DNA from: a virus
Length of the DNA: 45,483 nucleotides
Direction: 5' to 3' (one strand)
Virus record (IMG/VR): IMGVR_UViG_3300046747_000254
Coordinates: 1 to 45,483 of that record
The position numbers and the translations under genes were made by a program. Under the pieces are notes generated by a model that saw only the letters and a program-made list of their open reading frames with translations, had not been told where the DNA came from and searched no databases. The number at the start of each line of letters is the position of its first letter. The first letter of the stretch is position 1. Positions 23,441 to 43,048 of this stretch are shown here, piece by piece.

Positions 23441-26437
23441 ATGGCCATTATCGTCAACACCTCCGGGTGGCCGCTCAACGTAGCCAAGCCGTCGCAGGTG
23501 ACGAACGGCCAGTGGTGCTTCACGTTCACGCCCAACTTCGCGTCCGGCGCGGTAGGCACGACGCGGCGCATGTTCCAGATCGGAACCGGCACCGCAGAGC
23601 CGACCAACGCCAACGGCATGGTCGGCTGCTACGGGTTCCTCGGCACGCCGTACATCGTGCACAAGTGGGACACGGCGGGTGGCAACGGCACGGCGATCGC
23701 GGCGACGTGGTCTGCCAGCCAGACGATGACGCTGTACCTCGATACGACCGGCTCTGGTCGTATGCAGCTGTACGGCGCCACGACCGGCAACAGCTCTACC
23801 GCGATGGTCGGCACCAAGAGCTACCCGGCCGGCAATATGTACGTCGGCTCGGACTCGAGCGGCGGCCACGCCTTCACCGGCACGCTGTCCAACGTGTACG
23901 ACTTCGACCATACGGTCGCAGGCGCAGAAGCTGGCCTGACTGGGGCCGCAGCGGGAGCGCAGACGATCACGTCGACGGTCGCAGCAGCTCGTCCAGGGCT
24001 CGACGCTGCGGTGGTCGGGTCGATGCGCGTCAACGCGACGATGGCTGGCGCAGAGGATGGCCTGACGGCTGCGGCCACGGGTGCCTCGACGTCCTCGCCA
24101 CCCAACCCTGGGTACGCTGGCGGCGCGACCCTTGACCTGAGCGCGAGCCAGCCGGTGAGTCTGTTGGGGACGGCCCCCGACTTCATGCGGAATGGGCGCT
24201 GGCGGTTCACGTTCACGCAGACGAGCGAGGGCGCGTCCTTTTCTGGGGTTCTGTTCGGGTTCGCCGGTGCCGGCGCCCTGGGCGACGACCAGGTCTACTG
24301 CAGCAACGCCCTGGGCAGGATCTACGTAGCTGTCGGCGGTGCCTTCACGTACCGCAGCGCCACGTGGTCGTTCAGCCAGCCCGTCACCGTCACCGTCGAC
24401 AACGCAGCGGCCACGTTGGCCATCGCCGGGGCGACCACCGGCAACGGCACGTTCTCGATCAACAGCGGGACGCCCTGGACCTGGTCAGCAGGGGCGCTCG
24501 GCGTCGGCCAGTACGCCGGCACGACGCCGATCGGCAATCGGTTCGTCGGCTCGTTCAGCAACGTCGAAGCCGTGGAAGGTCCCACGGAGGCAGAGCTCGT
24601 CGGAGCGGCCTCTGGCGCACAGACGCTCACCTCTACCGCCGCCGGCGCAGAGGCGGGCCTGACGGGCGCAGCGATCGTCGCGCAGACGTTCGCCAGCACG
24701 GCAGCCGGCGCGGAGGCGGGCCTGACGGGCGCGGCCACCGTCGCGCAGACGATTGCTGGCACGGTCGCGGGTAGCGAGGCTGGCCTGACGGGCGCGGCCA
24801 CCGTCGCGCAGACCTTCGCCTCGACCGTCGCAGCAGCCCGGCCTGGGCTCGACGCGCTCTCCAGCGTCGCGCAGACCATCCCTGGCACCGTCGCCACCTC
24901 CCAGCCCGGCCTGGTCGCCTTTGCGCCCTCCGGCAACGACGTCAACGGCACGGTCGCGGCTGCGCGACTGGGGCTCGACGCAGCCGTTGCCGGCACCATC
25001 GGCGACGCCTTCCCGTTCGTCGTCGCGGCCGCCGAGGCCGGACTCACGGGCACAGCGACGGCGGCGCTGACGATCAGCGGCGCGGTCGCTGGCGGCGAGG
25101 CCGGGCTCACTGGCAGCCTGGCTGGCGCATTCCCGCACATCGGCACCATCGCGGCAGACCGACCTGGCCTGACCGCTGCCGCAGCCGGAGGCGAGGCCAT
25201 CGCCGCGACTGTCGCGGGCGCGCGCGTCGGGCTCACTGCCGCTGCCAACGCGCTCCGCTACAACGTGACCGTCGCCGGTGTGCTCGGGCAGACCGGGTTC
25301 GTGGCTGGCCTGACGGTCGCCGCCACGCCGTCCCTGTCGACCACGCCGACCTTCATGCGGACGGGGCGCTGGCGCTTCTCGTTCACGCAGCGCGTGGGGG
25401 CATCGACGGTCGGCGCGTCGTATCTGTTCGAGGTCGGAGCTGCCGGCAACAGAATGTCGGTCAACAACGACCTGGGCGCCATCTTCCTCGAGGCCAGCGG
25501 CGGCTTCGTTTCGTCCGCGACCATCTCCGCGCCGCAGGGCCAGGCGGTCACAGTCGACGTCGACTGGGTGAACAGCTTGATGACCGTGACCGGTGCCACG
25601 ACCGGTAACGGGGCGTACGCGATCTCCCCGGCCTCCAGCTGGCCGTCCGGCACGCTCGGCATCGGGCAAGACTCCGGCGCGTCGATCGCACCTTTCGACG
25701 GGACCATCTCGAGCGTCGAGAAATGGGGCACCGACGTTCTGGTCGCCGACGTGCGCGTGGCGCTGGCAGCCACCATGGCCGGCGCGGAGGCTGGTCTGAC
25801 GGGCAGCGCGACGGGCAGCGTCGCCGTGCCGGTCATCGGCGTCATCGCCGGCTCCGAGGCTGGTCTAACGGGCGCGTCGTCCGACTACGCGGCGCCGTCC
25901 GACTCGGCCTGGTCTGGCGCGTTCACCGGGCACGCGACCACCTACCCAGCTGCCCCAGCGGACGCCACCGGAGACCCGTCCGGCGGCCTGTTCGTCTCGC
26001 CCACGGTGGCTCTGTCGGTCGCCTTGAGCAGCGCGGGCCCAGCGGGCGGCGCGTTCAGCAGCGGGTCCTCGCAGGCGCGATCGGTGCCAGGAGCGTCCGC
26101 GCTGCCCACGGGGCCTGCGAGTGGCGGTTTTGCGGACATGCAGTTCTCCGACCCGGTGCCGGGCGTCATCGCCGGTGCGGTCAACGCCGCGCCGTCGGGG
26201 CTGGTCGCAGCGCTCTCCGCGATTCGCTTCAACGGCACGGTCGCGGCAGCGCGCCCTGGGCTCGCCGCTGTGGTCACCGGGCTGCGCATCAACGGAACGG
26301 TGGCTGGCGCAGAGGCTGGCCTTGTCGGCTCGACGAGCGAGCTTCCCGACCTGGCCGCTGGGTTCTCTTACTTGGTCAACTCGGCCGGGGCCTATCTGAC
26401 CGACGTGAATGGCTCGCTGCTCTACGGAAAGACCTAA
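23441..26437 (+). CDS. Large fibre protein: three lectin-like domains and AGAEAGLTG repeats
   Basis: 998 aa. Three related beta-sandwich (LamG/concanavalin-like) domains lie at ~1-160, ~229-380 and ~623-765; each begins with a G-[RQ]-W-[RC]-F-[TS]-F-T strand and contains a G-A-T-T-G-N motif. Between and after them run ~20-residue repeats with the core AGAEAGLTGAA or AARPGLDAA (clearest at ~383-620; others at ~160-220 and ~770-815). The C-terminus (FSYLVNSAGAYLTDVNGSLL) is a typical fibre end. Likely a tail fibre that binds surface glycans. No chaperone domain or hydrolase motif seen. Confidence 0.65.
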   Translation: MAIIVNTSGWPLNVAKPSQVTNGQWCFTFTPNFASGAVGTTRRMFQIGTGTAEPTNANGMVGCYGFLGTPYIVHKWDTAGGNGTAIAATWSASQTMTLYLDTTGSGRMQLYGATTGNSSTAMVGTKSYPAGNMYVGSDSSGGHAFTGTLSNVYDFDHTVAGAEAGLTGAAAGAQTITSTVAAARPGLDAAVVGSMRVNATMAGAEDGLTAAATGASTSSPPNPGYAGGATLDLSASQPVSLLGTAPDFMRNGRWRFTFTQTSEGASFSGVLFGFAGAGALGDDQVYCSNALGRIYVAVGGAFTYRSATWSFSQPVTVTVDNAAATLAIAGATTGNGTFSINSGTPWTWSAGALGVGQYAGTTPIGNRFVGSFSNVEAVEGPTEAELVGAASGAQTLTSTAAGAEAGLTGAAIVAQTFASTAAGAEAGLTGAATVAQTIAGTVAGSEAGLTGAATVAQTFASTVAAARPGLDALSSVAQTIPGTVATSQPGLVAFAPSGNDVNGTVAAARLGLDAAVAGTIGDAFPFVVAAAEAGLTGTATAALTISGAVAGGEAGLTGSLAGAFPHIGTIAADRPGLTAAAAGGEAIAATVAGARVGLTAAANALRYNVTVAGVLGQTGFVAGLTVAATPSLSTTPTFMRTGRWRFSFTQRVGASTVGASYLFEVGAAGNRMSVNNDLGAIFLEASGGFVSSATISAPQGQAVTVDVDWVNSLMTVTGATTGNGAYAISPASSWPSGTLGIGQDSGASIAPFDGTISSVEKWGTDVLVADVRVALAATMAGAEAGLTGSATGSVAVPVIGVIAGSEAGLTGASSDYAAPSDSAWSGAFTGHATTYPAAPADATGDPSGGLFVSPTVALSVALSSAGPAGGAFSSGSSQARSVPGASALPTGPASGGFADMQFSDPVPGVIAGAVNAAPSGLVAALSAIRFNGTVAAARPGLAAVVTGLRINGTVAGAEAGLVGSTSELPDLAAGFSYLVNSAGAYLTDVNGSLLYGKT
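24600..25300 (+). repeat. Coding repeats of the fibre gene
   Basis: Units of about 60 bases encode T-V-A-G-x-E-A-G-L-T-G-A-A-T-V-A-Q-T. The strongest DNA similarity is at 24640-24850, where three near-copies follow one another. Such repeats can expand or contract by recombination. Confidence 0.7.
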
Positions 26438-37641: not shown

Positions 37642-37975
37642 CCTGAGCTCCAAGCCGGCGGCGTTCACGTCGGCGGGCGTTGCGCTCCTCGCGGCCGGCA
37701 GCGTCCATGTTGGCGTAGTTGCGCCGGCAGCGCTCCCGTTCCCGCTCCAGGCGTTCCGCAGCCACCTCCTCAGGGTTCCGGTGAAGCTTCCTCGTCGCAT
37801 ACGCGATAGTACCAAGCTCGTCGGCTGGTATGTCCCCGTTTCGGTGTAGCCTCTGGATGCTTTCCAGGGTTGCCTTATTCGTTTCGCCGGTGTTGACGGC
37901 GAGCCTGGCGACGCTGCGCATGCCCTGGCGCCAGAGCCGGAGCACCCAGAAGTCGGTCTTCTCGGCCTCAGTCAC
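37571..37975 (-). CDS. Basic helical protein
   Basis: 134 aa from GTG 37975 behind a GGAGGTGGAGG site. The N-terminal part TEAEKTDFWVLRLWRQGMRS and VNTGETNKATLESIQRLHRN resembles a helix-turn-helix arrangement. The C-terminal half is extremely Arg-rich (RERCRRNYANMDAAGREERN, ARRRERRRLGAQ). Possibly DNA- or RNA-binding; family not recognised. Confidence 0.5.
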   Translation of the reverse strand: MTEAEKTDFWVLRLWRQGMRSVARLAVNTGETNKATLESIQRLHRNGDIPADELGTIAYATRKLHRNPEEVAAERLERERERCRRNYANMDAAGREERNARRRERRRLGAQGADARGPAGVSARPADANDRPDP

Positions 37976-38555
37976 CCTCCACCTCCTGGCGGGCAAACTT
38001 GACGGCCGGCAGGTCCGCGTGGCGCCAGATCACCGGCAGCGAGGTGTAGTCGCGCATGCGCCGCTGGCTCCACGCGCGCAGCTCGCGCGTCGTCAGCTTC
38101 CCAAAGCCGGAGTGCGCCTTCCAGTTGTCGCTGATGAAGTTGGCGATGGTGAGCATGTCTTCTTCTTCGGTCGCGTCGAGCGCAGCCGTCGCGAGCATGT
38201 GCAGCCGTGTCGCGTTGAGGGCCTCGATCTCGGTCGTGTTGTTGCGGTGGGCAACGAACAGGCGCAGGTCTCCGATCTTCAGCGTGGCCAGGGCCTTGTC
38301 GAGCGCGGCCACGGCATATCCGTCGCTCAGGTCGTTGCCTCGCGGAAGGCCGGACAGCTGCTGTGGCATGGGCGGCACCACCAGCGGCTTGTAGGCGTTC
38401 CTTGTCTCGTGGTCGCGCAGCTCCCCCGCGAGAAGCCCGTGCATGCGCGCCACGTGGCTCTTCTTGCTGTCCCCGCCGTCCAGGATGCTCATGACCAACG
38501 GCGCGTACTTGTCCGCTGCCGCCAGGTACTCTGCTCGCTGCTGTTGTGTGCTCAT
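37968..38555 (-). CDS. Hypothetical protein next to the replication initiator
   Basis: 195 aa from the ATG overlapping the initiator stop (ATGA). Mainly helical (QRAEYLAAADKYAPLVMSIL, AAALDATEEEDMLTIANFIS), ending with basic segments. No Walker motif, so it is not a DnaC-like loader. Its place, where lambda has gene P, suggests a replication partner (inference). Confidence 0.5.
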   Translation of the reverse strand: MSTQQQRAEYLAAADKYAPLVMSILDGGDSKKSHVARMHGLLAGELRDHETRNAYKPLVVPPMPQQLSGLPRGNDLSDGYAVAALDKALATLKIGDLRLFVAHRNNTTEIEALNATRLHMLATAALDATEEEDMLTIANFISDNWKAHSGFGKLTTRELRAWSQRRMRDYTSLPVIWRHADLPAVKFARQEVEGD

Positions 38556-39559
38556 GTGGTAGCCGCCTTTCGTGCCTTGATCTGCCTGACTAGCTCTGCT
38601 GTATCGCGTGCAACTTCTGCGGGGTCGCGCTGCTCCTCGACCACCTGGGTCGGAACGTATGGCTTGCTGCTCGCGTACCGGTCGCCCACGGGCGCCGAAA
38701 CCGAGAAGCCGGGCCAGTGGTCGTCCGGCGAGCCCAGCGCCGCCACGAGGCTCCCAAAGGCGCCAACGAAGCTGGCGTAGGGAACCGACTTGGCCCACTT
38801 GTCCCGAGGGCGCTCCGCCCAGGCGCGGAAGCAGTCCTCGAGCAGCGCCAGCGGGTCGACCGAGCGGAGCTTGGCAGTGTTCTCCAGCTGGCTCGGGAAT
38901 CCGTGTACGTTCTTGCCCGACATATTCGGGTCCACCGAGAACGTGTGCATGTGCAGGTTGCGGAACTTGGCGACGATCTGCTGCGGCAGCGCGGGAGCGT
39001 CTTCGAAAGCTCCGTGCGCTGGGATCGGCCGGATTACCGCCAGTGTAGGTTTTTGTGTGTCTTGCTCATAAACAAGGGTAGGGGAGGCAAGGCTAGGCAG
39101 AGCAGAGCAAGGCAAAGAGTGACCGATCGTGACCGGCTGTGACCGGTCGTGACCGTCTGTCACGTTTTGTGACTTACTAGGGTCACGATCTGTGACTTGA
39201 GGGGTAAGCGGGTAGTTTCCGCAGGCCCGACGAGCCCTGGACTCCTGCTGACGCAGGCGGTCGGACTTGGAGCACTCCTGAGCCTCGATGTAGTTGGGGA
39301 ACACCAGGATCTTGCCACGCACCTCGAGCACTCCGACCCTGATCAGGGCGGCCGTGCCGGTGCGCGCTGGCCCCTCTGGGGCTCCCGTCTGCAGCATCAC
39401 GGCTTCCCATGGCTCGAGGTCGTCCAGGTCGATCGCGCCGGCTCTGTCGGCCTTGCGCAGCAGCGCCATCAGGCAGCACTGCCCATCCCACCCAAGGCGC
39501 ATCCACGAGGTCGTGTCGCGCACGTACAGGCGTACGTAGCTCTCGTTTGACCAATCCAT
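38552..39559 (-). CDS. Replication initiator (winged-helix, O-like)
   Basis: 335 aa. The N-terminal ~110 residues match phage replisome organisers: SYVRLYVRDTTSWMRLGWDG (7-26), CLMALLRKADRAGAIDLDDL (~29-48), LIRVGVLEVRGKILVFPNYI (~72-91) and EAQECSKSDRLRQQESRARR. A variable linker at ~112-190 is encoded over the iterons at 39119-39200, exactly the arrangement of lambda O, where the origin lies inside the gene. The C-terminal part is helical and may bind a helicase loader. It starts replication at the internal origin. Confidence 0.75.
   Translation of the reverse strand: MDWSNESYVRLYVRDTTSWMRLGWDGQCCLMALLRKADRAGAIDLDDLEPWEAVMLQTGAPEGPARTGTAALIRVGVLEVRGKILVFPNYIEAQECSKSDRLRQQESRARRACGNYPLTPQVTDRDPSKSQNVTDGHDRSQPVTIGHSLPCSALPSLASPTLVYEQDTQKPTLAVIRPIPAHGAFEDAPALPQQIVAKFRNLHMHTFSVDPNMSGKNVHGFPSQLENTAKLRSVDPLALLEDCFRAWAERPRDKWAKSVPYASFVGAFGSLVAALGSPDDHWPGFSVSAPVGDRYASSKPYVPTQVVEEQRDPAEVARDTAELVRQIKARKAATT
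39119..39200. other. Putative replication origin: 10-base GTGACCG iterons
   Basis: GTGACCGATC, GTGACCGGCT, GTGACCGGTC, GTGACCGTCT, GTCACGTTTT and GTGACTTACT follow one another at exactly 10-base steps from 39119 to 39178. Further GTCAC and GTGAC elements lie at about 39183 and 39193. The 10-base period puts every copy on one face of the helix. The site lies inside the initiator gene, as in lambda; a purine-rich strand and a somewhat AT-richer stretch (39044-39075) lie beside it. Confidence 0.7.
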
Positions 39560-40462: not shown

Positions 40463-40860
40463 GACTGCATCGCCTCTGGCGCGTCGTGTGCGCGCGCCTC
40501 GCCTTGGTGTTTGGGGAACCGATCGCTGGGCGTCCAGCCGTCCTTCCGGGGCTCACAGAAGCGGAACTCGCGGTCGGGGAAGTGCTTCGCGATGTCCGTG
40601 AACACGGCCGACGGGTCGTCGTACTGGACCAGCGCGCAGGCTGACACCTCGTCGCGCATGTCCTCGTCTTCTCCGTCGCGGTCGACGTAGCTCTCTGCGC
40701 TCGCCGCCTCGCGAAGCGGGCCGACAAGGCCTGGCATTGCGTCGATCTTCTCGAGCGCCTTGCGGTCGCGATAGCCGGTCACCCAGAAGTGGAACGGAGG
40801 CTCTGTGCAGCCCTCGTCGGCATAGTTTCCAGTCCACCAGCTCACCCAAAATCTAGTCAT
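40459..40860 (-). CDS. Hypothetical phage protein
   Basis: 133 aa from the ATG overlapping the nuclease stop. MTRFWVSWWTGNYADEG, FHFWVTGYRDR, VSACALVQYDDPSAVFTDIA and HFPDREFRFCEPRKDGW form a conserved layout of a small phage family. Acidic middle (DRDGEDEDMRDEV). Function unknown; coupled to the RecE-like gene. Confidence 0.55.
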   Translation of the reverse strand: MTRFWVSWWTGNYADEGCTEPPFHFWVTGYRDRKALEKIDAMPGLVGPLREAASAESYVDRDGEDEDMRDEVSACALVQYDDPSAVFTDIAKHFPDREFRFCEPRKDGWTPSDRFPKHQGEARAHDAPEAMQS

Positions 40861-41783
40861 GACTCGTCTGCTTTCTTCCATGCGGGCTTCTGTGCGATCA
40901 CGAGACCGGGCGAGCGCGAGCGCGGCCATTCGTTAGCCTCCAGGCAGTGCGCCAGGTCGAGGCAGTTGTTGAACACCCAGTCTGAGCAAGCGTCGAGAAA
41001 GTCTTCCTCCAGCTCGAACACCACGCAGCGGTTGGGGCTGCTCTTCTCGCACGCCAGGATGTAGTGCACGCTGTCCGGGTAGCCGTTCTCGCGCATGCAG
41101 GTGCGCGCAATCTCGGCCTGCTTGTCGTAGCCGTACTCGACGATCACGCGGCGCGAGTACATGCGCTCCATGTGGTCGACGGTCTTGAGGTCCACCGTGA
41201 ATGGGCGGAAGCCAGACAGCGCGCAGCCCTTGAGCGACACGTAGTCAGGCCGGCTCTGCAGCGTCACGCGAGGATCGTTCGGGTTGCTCTGGTCTGCAGG
41301 CGGCCAGTGGCACGTCATGGTGACCTGCTGATCGCACTGCGCGAGCAGCTCCACCGCTTCCTCGTTCTCCTGGAATGCCGCCTTCATCTCCCGGAACATG
41401 AACAGCTCGGTCGACTTGAGCGGTATCTTGCCGGCCGCCTTCTGCTCGGCCAGCCACGCCTTGCCGTACACCTTGGTGGTCTTGAATGCGGCGCCGTCGG
41501 GCTGCACCAGAGGCTGCTGCACGTACGTCTTATCGAACAGGCGCGAGTCATCCATGAACATCTCGAAGGCGATGCCCAGCACGCGCGCGCGGGCTTCCTT
41601 CGCCTTCGCGGCAGGGTCGGGCACGTCGTCGTCTTCGTCGTCGTCAACGTCGACCAGGGCGCGGTGCGCGACGTACTTGTCGAAGTACAGCTTTGGGCTG
41701 ACCGAGAAGTCCTTGAGCTGGTGGTTGCCCACGTTGGTGGACGCGAGGTACTCCGACATTGGCAGGTCAGGAATGATAGCCAT
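40857..41783 (-). CDS. RecE-like exonuclease, PD-(D/E)XK fold
   Basis: 308 aa. Motifs run in the order of the RecE/DUF3799 family: SVSPKLYFDKYV (27-38), LGIAFEMFM (69-77), SRPDYVSL (177-184), TVDLKTV (196-202) and QAEIAR (222-227). Asp180, Asp198 and Lys200 fit the PD-(D/E)XK site. These enzymes chew double-stranded ends 5'-3'. It lies close to the ERF annealing gene, forming a two-component recombination system. The usual H in the G-x-A-x-H motif is Glu here. Confidence 0.75.
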   Translation of the reverse strand: MAIIPDLPMSEYLASTNVGNHQLKDFSVSPKLYFDKYVAHRALVDVDDDEDDDVPDPAAKAKEARARVLGIAFEMFMDDSRLFDKTYVQQPLVQPDGAAFKTTKVYGKAWLAEQKAAGKIPLKSTELFMFREMKAAFQENEEAVELLAQCDQQVTMTCHWPPADQSNPNDPRVTLQSRPDYVSLKGCALSGFRPFTVDLKTVDHMERMYSRRVIVEYGYDKQAEIARTCMRENGYPDSVHYILACEKSSPNRCVVFELEEDFLDACSDWVFNNCLDLAHCLEANEWPRSRSPGLVIAQKPAWKKADES

Positions 41784-42128: not shown

Positions 42129-42953
42129 TTACCTTCCCTGCTGCCGGAGCTTGGAGGCCTCGGCGTTGAATGCTGCTTTGGTGGTGGTGGGGTCGATGCC
42201 AAGAGCCTCGCAGCGCTTACCGTAGGCGTTCCAAGCGGGCCGCTTGAACTCGTCGGAGATCTCCCGCATCTGGGGGTCATGCGTCCCGTCGTCGCCCGCG
42301 ATAAGCCAGCCGGCCCACTCGATCAGCCCTTGTACGTTGGGCATGTTGGCCAGGTCGGAGATGTGGCGATTGACGACGCGCACGCGATCGTCGGTCGCTT
42401 GCGCCTTGCCGTCGCGCTTGCCTTGCATGGTCTCCACGCGCGCCTGAGTGGACTGCTGCGGGCGCTCGTCGCGGTTGTTGACGTTGTGCTCCGGGTCCTC
42501 TTCAGCACTGCCCGCAACGCCCATCAGGCGAAGCAGCGCGGTACGGTCAAGCGCGGTGGACGCGATGAAGCCCGCTTTGTCGTTCGCCTGCGTGAGGCAC
42601 TGGTAGGACATCACCGTCGCCTGCCCAGACGCAGCGTGCGCCAGCTGGAAGGATGCTCGCCATACGAGGAACAGCTGCGGTCCACTCTTGCCAGCGAGCT
42701 CAAGCGGGTGGACGAGCTCAAGGCTGTTTTGCACGAGCGTGAGCCCGCATTCGAGCATGGCCTTGCGAACGTGGTGCACGACGTGCTCGTGCCCGACATA
42801 GTTGTAGTTGCCACCGCCCCCCTCGGTTTTGCGACCCTCTTTCAATAGCGTGCCCGTGACGCGCTTGCGCGCCTCGACCAGCGCGGCGTGTAAGGTGCCG
42901 CGCGCGTGGATGGGATCGGCAGCAAGTGCCGCGTTGCGTTCGTTCTCGGTCAT
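42129..42953 (-). CDS. erf: ERF-family single-strand annealing protein
   Basis: 274 aa from the ATG overlapping the upstream stop (ATGA). The ERF core shows NYNYVGHEHVVHHVRKAMLE (49-68), then CGLTLVQNSLELV, QLAHAASGQATVMSYQ and the key DKAGFIASTALDRTALLRL (125-143). ERF proteins (as in P22) anneal complementary strands. Residues ~190-274 form a C-terminal tail likely to bind partners. Works with the RecE-like exonuclease. Confidence 0.8.
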   Translation of the reverse strand: MTENERNAALAADPIHARGTLHAALVEARKRVTGTLLKEGRKTEGGGGNYNYVGHEHVVHHVRKAMLECGLTLVQNSLELVHPLELAGKSGPQLFLVWRASFQLAHAASGQATVMSYQCLTQANDKAGFIASTALDRTALLRLMGVAGSAEEDPEHNVNNRDERPQQSTQARVETMQGKRDGKAQATDDRVRVVNRHISDLANMPNVQGLIEWAGWLIAGDDGTHDPQMREISDEFKRPAWNAYGKRCEALGIDPTTTKAAFNAEASKLRQQGR

Positions 42954-43048
42954 GGACAATACCCCAGGTAGCTAGCGATTGAGAGCAAGACGCCCAGCAG
43001 GACGAGCGTGATCAGGACGGCGCGTGTGATGTCAGAACGAGATGTCAT
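42950..43048 (-). CDS. 32-aa membrane peptide
   Basis: It begins MTSRSDITRAVLITLVLLGV, with a single span LITLVLLGVLLSIASYLG. It overlaps erf by ATGA and the upstream gene by 17 bases. Support is the linked overlaps. Confidence 0.45.
   Translation of the reverse strand: MTSRSDITRAVLITLVLLGVLLSIASYLGYCP

Follow-up and report, generated by a model that had tools for sequence, protein, structure and literature searches.

We propose that an array of short repeats in this viral genome is the replication origin of the phage, that it lies in the linker-coding part of the phage's own initiator (replisome-organizer-type) gene, and that it is bound by the product of the same gene; we would put the probability of this reading at about 0.86. 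The window analyzed here is the whole viral record of 45,483 bp. The proposal is built on the array itself, on the conservation of its DNA over the encoded protein, on an architecture that recurs among relatives, on a tract of pentamers, on a predicted winged-helix domain, on a helicase gene neighboring the initiator gene in relatives, and on a layout that is also found in phages Tuc2009 and r1t.

A motif count in the window located eight GTSAC cores (39119-39196), which lie antisense within a 335-aa open reading frame (38552-39559, minus strand). On the plus strand, GTGAC occurs at 39119, 39129, 39139, 39149, 39169 and 39192, and GTCAC at 39159 and 39182. The earlier note had described six contiguous 10-base GTGAC/GTCAC units at 39119-39200, and this description was confirmed: the first six cores (39119-39169) are contiguous and follow each other at exact 10-bp steps, and beyond them come one 13-bp step and two further cores. 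Read on the coding strand, the order is GTCAC-10-GTGAC-13-GTCAC-10-GTGAC-10-GTCAC-10-GTCAC-10-GTCAC-10-GTCAC, that is, two pairs that alternate and then four cores head to tail (Table 1). TRF reported a period of 10/20. In simulated sequences (200 first-order Markov versions of the window), runs of GTSAC at 10-bp steps reached two at most. Clusters of at least four GTSAC per 50 bp number two in the window, compared with 0.02 on average in 100 simulations; GTGAC as such is below expectation when the entire window is counted (86 occurrences, with 127 expected). The spacers between the cores are unlike one another, both in the window and in relatives, and the array as a whole is placed between a predicted winged-helix domain and the C-terminal part of the encoded protein. 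A minimum of GC skew had been suggested as a check; the cumulative minimum, at about 40.5-42 kb, is weakly consistent with an origin here and is confounded by gene direction.

Table 1. Features of the putative origin and of the gene that contains it (positions of the window)
Feature	Position	Strand	Basis
Gene of 335 aa for a candidate replication initiator (replisome organizer); its linker-coding part contains the putative origin	38552..39559	-	N-terminal homologs in 61 readable viral loci; PF09681/phrog_1408 matches in relatives; DnaB downstream in 7 of 10 tested
N-terminal winged-helix domain (residues 1-114), presumed to bind the iterons	39218..39559	-	AlphaFold2 model for the fold
Alternating half of the array: GTCAC, GTGAC, GTCAC, GTGAC (steps 10, 13, 10)	39159..39196	-	Motif positions; same alternation in eight relatives
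Head-to-tail half of the array: four coding-strand GTCAC at 10-bp steps	39119..39153	-	Motif positions, TRF, family logo
Nine phase-locked pentamers, candidate opening or strand-register element	39073..39117	-	Lag-5 identity, family alignment, controls

We searched viral contigs by DNA pattern only, requiring four GTGAC at 10-bp steps, and obtained at least 120 stretches. Among the matches listed, 43 of 120 had diverse spacers, and 32 of these 43 lay antisense in a long open reading frame; many of the 32 look like replication initiators. At least 13 of the loci found by DNA pattern carry homologs of the N-terminal domain (phmmer E-values from 3e-47 to 4e-8). The reverse search, with an alignment of the N-terminal domain alone, gave 63 loci, of which 61 were readable through the linker, with protein identities of 33-67%. 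Three or more GTSAC cores immediately follow the N-terminal domain in all but three of the readable loci. The exceptions with fewer than three linker cores are L300, which is truncated, L304, which uses GTTAC, and L326, which has none; in L330 the cores are mixed with GTAAC. Thus nearly all relatives selected by protein keep the array, and the conservation of iterons alongside the protein, whose absence the earlier note had named as refuting its reading, was borne out. The family logo shows GTCAC at -30, -20, -10 and 0, and the same arrangement as in the window, alternating pairs and then a tandem run, is seen in L296, L310, L317, L321, L325, L328, L333 and L356. Outside the viral contigs, the N-terminal domain was found in two of 379 sampled genomes of one phylum, that of a MAG with a relative, and this MAG is one of the two.

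These searches also recovered many stretches that look like satellites. Spacers were near-identical in the remaining 77 of the 120 listed GTGAC stretches, and a control pattern, (GTCAG N5)x4, returned 68 stretches, 57 of them of the same satellite-like kind. This leaves some room for the idea that the array arose by chance or by slippage and has no function. However, the spacers of our arrays are diverse, and the repeats are conserved at one position of the gene across proteins that share only 33-67% identity, so that this idea is refuted for the family and we give it practically no credence.

The repeats might also be a by-product of selection on the protein, namely a low-complexity Val-Thr/His/Ser linker that is maintained as a peptide and whose codons repeat incidentally; in many relatives the array does encode a recurring VTxxHxxSxx. 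The cores were compared with synonymous-codon shuffles. In 57 non-redundant loci, there were 7.53 cores per 300 nt, about twice the 3.80 of the shuffles, and the window has eight cores against 2.4 in its own shuffles, none of 200 reaching as many. Of the roughly 370 spacings of up to 60 bp between neighboring cores, exactly 10 bp accounts for 232 and 11 bp for 16. Each of the three reading frames is used by some of the arrays (24/12/4), repeats that recur every 10 bp cannot hold a peptide in frame, and the tract that follows has a period of 5, not 3. The core excess over the shuffles, the 10-bp spacing and the use of all three frames indicate that the constraint is on the DNA and not on the linker peptide, and selection of the repeats as peptide is largely refuted and hardly credible.

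Directly after the last GTCAC, and phase-locked to the iterons, there is a tract of pentamers that had been overlooked in the earlier note. On the coding strand of the window, it reads CTTTG CCTTG CTCTG CTCTG CCTAG CCTTG CCTCC CCTAC CCTTG. Its lag-5 identity is 0.70, a value that none of 100 synonymous shuffles attained. In 40 aligned loci, there is a distinctive T at +5, and C occurs at +6, +11, +16, +21, +26, +31 and +36 in 97, 85, 82, 85, 75, 78 and 68%, respectively. The lag-5 identity of the family over 45 nt is 0.51, compared with 0.38 in synonymous shuffles and 0.27 elsewhere in the same genes, and values of at least 0.5 were reached by 59% of the loci compared with 0.44% of control segments. 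Unlike classical unwinding elements, the tract of the window's family is not AT-rich. In other families, initiator-like genes that carry GTGAC arrays often show a short-period tract at this position, with a period of 5, 6 or 7. We also noticed a C-rich hairpin of the form CCCCCTWAxCCCCCxxGGGGG after the repeat tract in L301, L308, L321 and L341, in which the single G run could pair with either C run; the same form occurs in other initiator families, in L365 (Pseudomonas phage P7869) and L366 (Rac ydaU). We considered this hairpin as a third origin element and rejected it: the family shows an enrichment (5, with 0.8 expected from synonymous shuffles), yet the window lacks it.

The encoded protein was examined at the level of sequence and of fold. 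An AlphaFold2 model from 60 sequences predicts the N-terminal domain with a mean pLDDT of 83.7 and with the element order of a winged helix. The window protein had no significant match in Pfam, the lambda-O-type families included (the top hit was an insignificant IS66 at E 0.046), it did not reach the curated cut-off of PF09681, and PHROGs gave no match. In Pfam there was also no sign of an AAA+ domain and no match to a Rep family such as RepE or TrfA. A tblastn search with the window protein against named phages and plasmids and a scan of viral contigs with this single sequence were likewise without a match. Among the relatives, however, seven of 60 matched PF09681 (Phage_rep_org_N) at E-values up to 0.1 (best 7.5e-6), and six of 60 matched phrog_1408, a replication initiation protein. 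A fold search against the PDB gave generic matches, mostly to winged helices of the CRP/FNR type, and none at E < 0.001; matches to viral folds were similarly weak (none at E < 0.001), and the best of those with a name include several replisome organisers or replication initiators. The nearest detectable family relationship is a weak one, to PF09681: it runs through those seven relatives and agrees with the predicted winged helix and with the viral fold matches named replisome organiser, whereas the window protein itself is unmatched. The C-terminal parts, compared by eye, differ between relatives, so that the N-terminal domain seems to move as a unit with its sites. By eye, the translations show a GIY-YIG-like stretch in L097 and L319 and an HNH-like one in L307, placed after the N-terminal domain and before the array; this has the look of a nuclease insertion beside the origin.

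A DnaB helicase gene lies downstream of the initiator gene in seven of 10 relatives tested. The gene that follows the initiator gene in the window (37968-38555) had no recognisable match to a P-loop protein, helicase or loader, unlike most relatives tested; in the closest relative, L296, the downstream gene has a weak P-loop match (NPHP3_N, E 5e-4).

The initiators of phages Tuc2009 and TP901-1 bind direct repeats in their own genes, which serve as the phage origin, and ORF11 of r1t is homologous to the initiator of Tuc2009 (PMC8965321); Tuc2009 and r1t are lactococcal phages of the P335 group. The rep gene of Tuc2009 (orf16), which is annotated as 'contains origin of replication', has four CAACCA at 11 bp and then pentamers of the AGGWW type, with a lag-5 identity of 0.71 (0 of 1000 shuffles as high). 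In orf11 of r1t, four GGAACC at 11 bp are likewise followed by pentamers, and the lag-5 identity varies over 0.58-0.68 with the choice of segment. In TP901-1 rep, which has been published as an origin gene, our scan showed no simple 9-12-bp k-mer array. The likeness of Tuc2009 and r1t to the window is that the origin or putative origin is in the initiator gene and consists of four 6-bp iterons in the linker region and then, at once, 5-nt repeats. The window shows two features of an origin of this kind: helix-phased direct repeats in the initiator gene after the N-terminal domain, and a short-period tract directly downstream, the latter a feature that we derived from these two phages rather than from the literature. 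There are also differences: the cores are CAACCA and GGAACC rather than GTSAC, the period is 11 rather than 10, no alternating half is seen in Tuc2009 and r1t, their pentamers are AT-richer, and the proteins of the window's family have no significant similarity to r1t ORF11 (hhalign probability 19%). Rac ydaU, from the prophage with oriJ, was considered as a possible validated case and set aside: its repeats are of another kind, a GTSAC array is lacking, and the sources consulted do not locate oriJ within ydaU.

The earlier note had compared the window with the lambda origin, the classical case of an origin within an initiator gene. The lambda iterons, to which O binds as dimers, are inverted repeats and lie beside a 40-bp A+T-rich region (PMC5043065). 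The parallel in layout holds, in that the iterons are inside the initiator gene, O in lambda, and adjoin the DNA to be opened (PMC5043065). Calling the protein 'O-like' with iterons in its linker is likewise apt by function and layout only: the window protein lacks a significant Pfam match, the lambda-O type included, and homology to lambda O was not found. The 10-bp period, which had been singled out as much tighter than that of lambda, is not unusual either. A control pattern with an 11-bp period, (GTGAC N6)x4, returned 106 stretches, many of them in other initiator-like genes, so that 10 bp is not unique, and periods of 10 or 11 bp are found in many initiator genes of phages. Iterons of plasmids are usually about 17-22 bp, whereas the unit in the window is a 5-bp core at 10 bp and the initiator has no Rep-family match. 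Short repeats that are bound as single-stranded DNA by initiators are known from the DnaA-trio, from TTATT of E. coli, from the DUE repeats of V. cholerae ori2 and from plasmid Rep proteins (PMC10797057). By analogy, the window pentamers would be the counterpart of the DnaA-trio, TTATT and ori2 DUE repeats, which also stand beside double-strand binding sites; they differ from them in unit length and sequence, and the window protein has no sign of AAA+.

Alternatively, the initiator or another phage regulator might use the array as an autoregulatory operator or for copy control, with the true origin elsewhere. Self-regulation of genes is common among the initiators of iteron replicons, and the other GTSAC cluster of the window, at 1341-1386, would suit such a role, being apparently intergenic and overlapping a promoter-like match. 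However, the array itself is deep in the gene, about 360 bp from the start and not at a promoter, it is followed by conserved phase-locked pentamers, and the same layout is present in the origin-annotated rep of Tuc2009. We therefore consider an operator at the array improbable. The cluster at 1341-1386 had been taken as a recurrence of the GTGAC core. It is real (counting this one, the window has two GTSAC clusters where 0.02 would be expected) and has four GTSAC and two GTAAC at spacings of 13, 7, 7, 8 and 5 bp, none of them 10; the units are TGTNACA-like, and a TGTGACGTCACA palindrome lies inside a larger imperfect inverted repeat. Given the irregular spacing and the finding that 411 kb of relatives' flanks held no counterpart outside the initiator gene, it probably does not repeat the element of the array, and we treat it as a separate one, perhaps an operator or a secondary initiator site.

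It is also conceivable that GTSAC is bound by a host factor or another shared factor instead of the N-terminal domain of the initiator, with the same origin function. GTSAC at 10 or 11 bp does occur in initiator genes whose N-termini lack significant similarity to the window's family, as a shared factor would predict. On the other hand, the core differs between initiator genes (CAACCA in Tuc2009, GGAACC in r1t, GTTAC/GTAAC in phi11 and likewise in L304 and L330, and GTCAG in another family), as expected for recognition by each initiator, and we regard a shared factor as very improbable. Several of these other families are of interest in themselves. L122-L227 include several initiator-like families with GTGAC at an 11-bp period in the same antisense orientation. 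In the GTCAG control, none of the non-satellite stretches was antisense in a long open reading frame, and four were sense-strand in another initiator-like family; L235, L256, L279 and L293, with a GKVFxSLWxGS-type N-terminus, carry GTCAG at 10-bp steps on the sense strand, and the gene of a related-looking protein, L121, has GTCAC, so that the core may switch within one family. A family of E. coli and Pseudomonas phages (WLRLWHDMPNDPKW; L363 3501-4571, L365 3501-4400) has, besides the linker array, a second GTCAC run at 10-11 bp inside the region that codes for the N-terminal domain (coding positions 128-159).

Returning to the array as an origin bound by its own gene product, we infer that this product binds the array, that the array acts as origin, that the DNA opens at the pentamers and that a helicase is recruited, and these steps could proceed as follows. 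The winged-helix N-terminal domain would bind the GTSAC iterons with one protomer per 10 bp, all on one face of the helix. The half proximal to the gene start, with its alternating orientation, would provide paired sites, and the other half runs head to tail toward the pentamers downstream. Once assembled on the array, the protomers may distort or wrap the DNA and open the adjacent tract, the 5-nt repeats might serve as a register for an initiator or loader that binds one exposed strand, and the C-terminal part would finally recruit the replicative helicase.

The individual element in the window is a variant of the intragenic origins that are already known. Any novelty may lie in the two-part layout as a general arrangement with phase-locked short repeats, and even here the literature on lactococcal origins may already note the pentamers. 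We tentatively suggest, at somewhat less than even odds, that phage initiator genes of many lineages share a two-part origin code, in which helical-turn iterons ending head-to-tail are followed by phase-locked repeats, and that these 5-nt repeats (6- or 7-nt in other families) would be a strand-selective register for the opened DNA, analogous to the DnaA-trio in proteins that show no sign of AAA+. If this is true, phage origins could be read directly from sequence. Origins are unmapped in most phages known from metagenomes only, and a DNA rule that holds in Tuc2009 and r1t would name the origin, its orientation and the likely opening site from the sequence alone. It would also turn many anonymous 'helix-turn-helix protein' genes into testable pairs of initiator and origin, and the pentamers, in phase with the iterons, are relevant to the question of how initiators that lack an AAA+ domain achieve DNA opening and strand choice.

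Two other features of the window were observed. Upstream of the initiator gene and in the same direction, there are recombination genes, one Exonuclease VIII-like (40857-41783) and one Erf-like (42129-42959). In addition, a 63-bp tandem repeat of about 3-4 copies is found at 24641-24894, within a long open reading frame (23441-26437).
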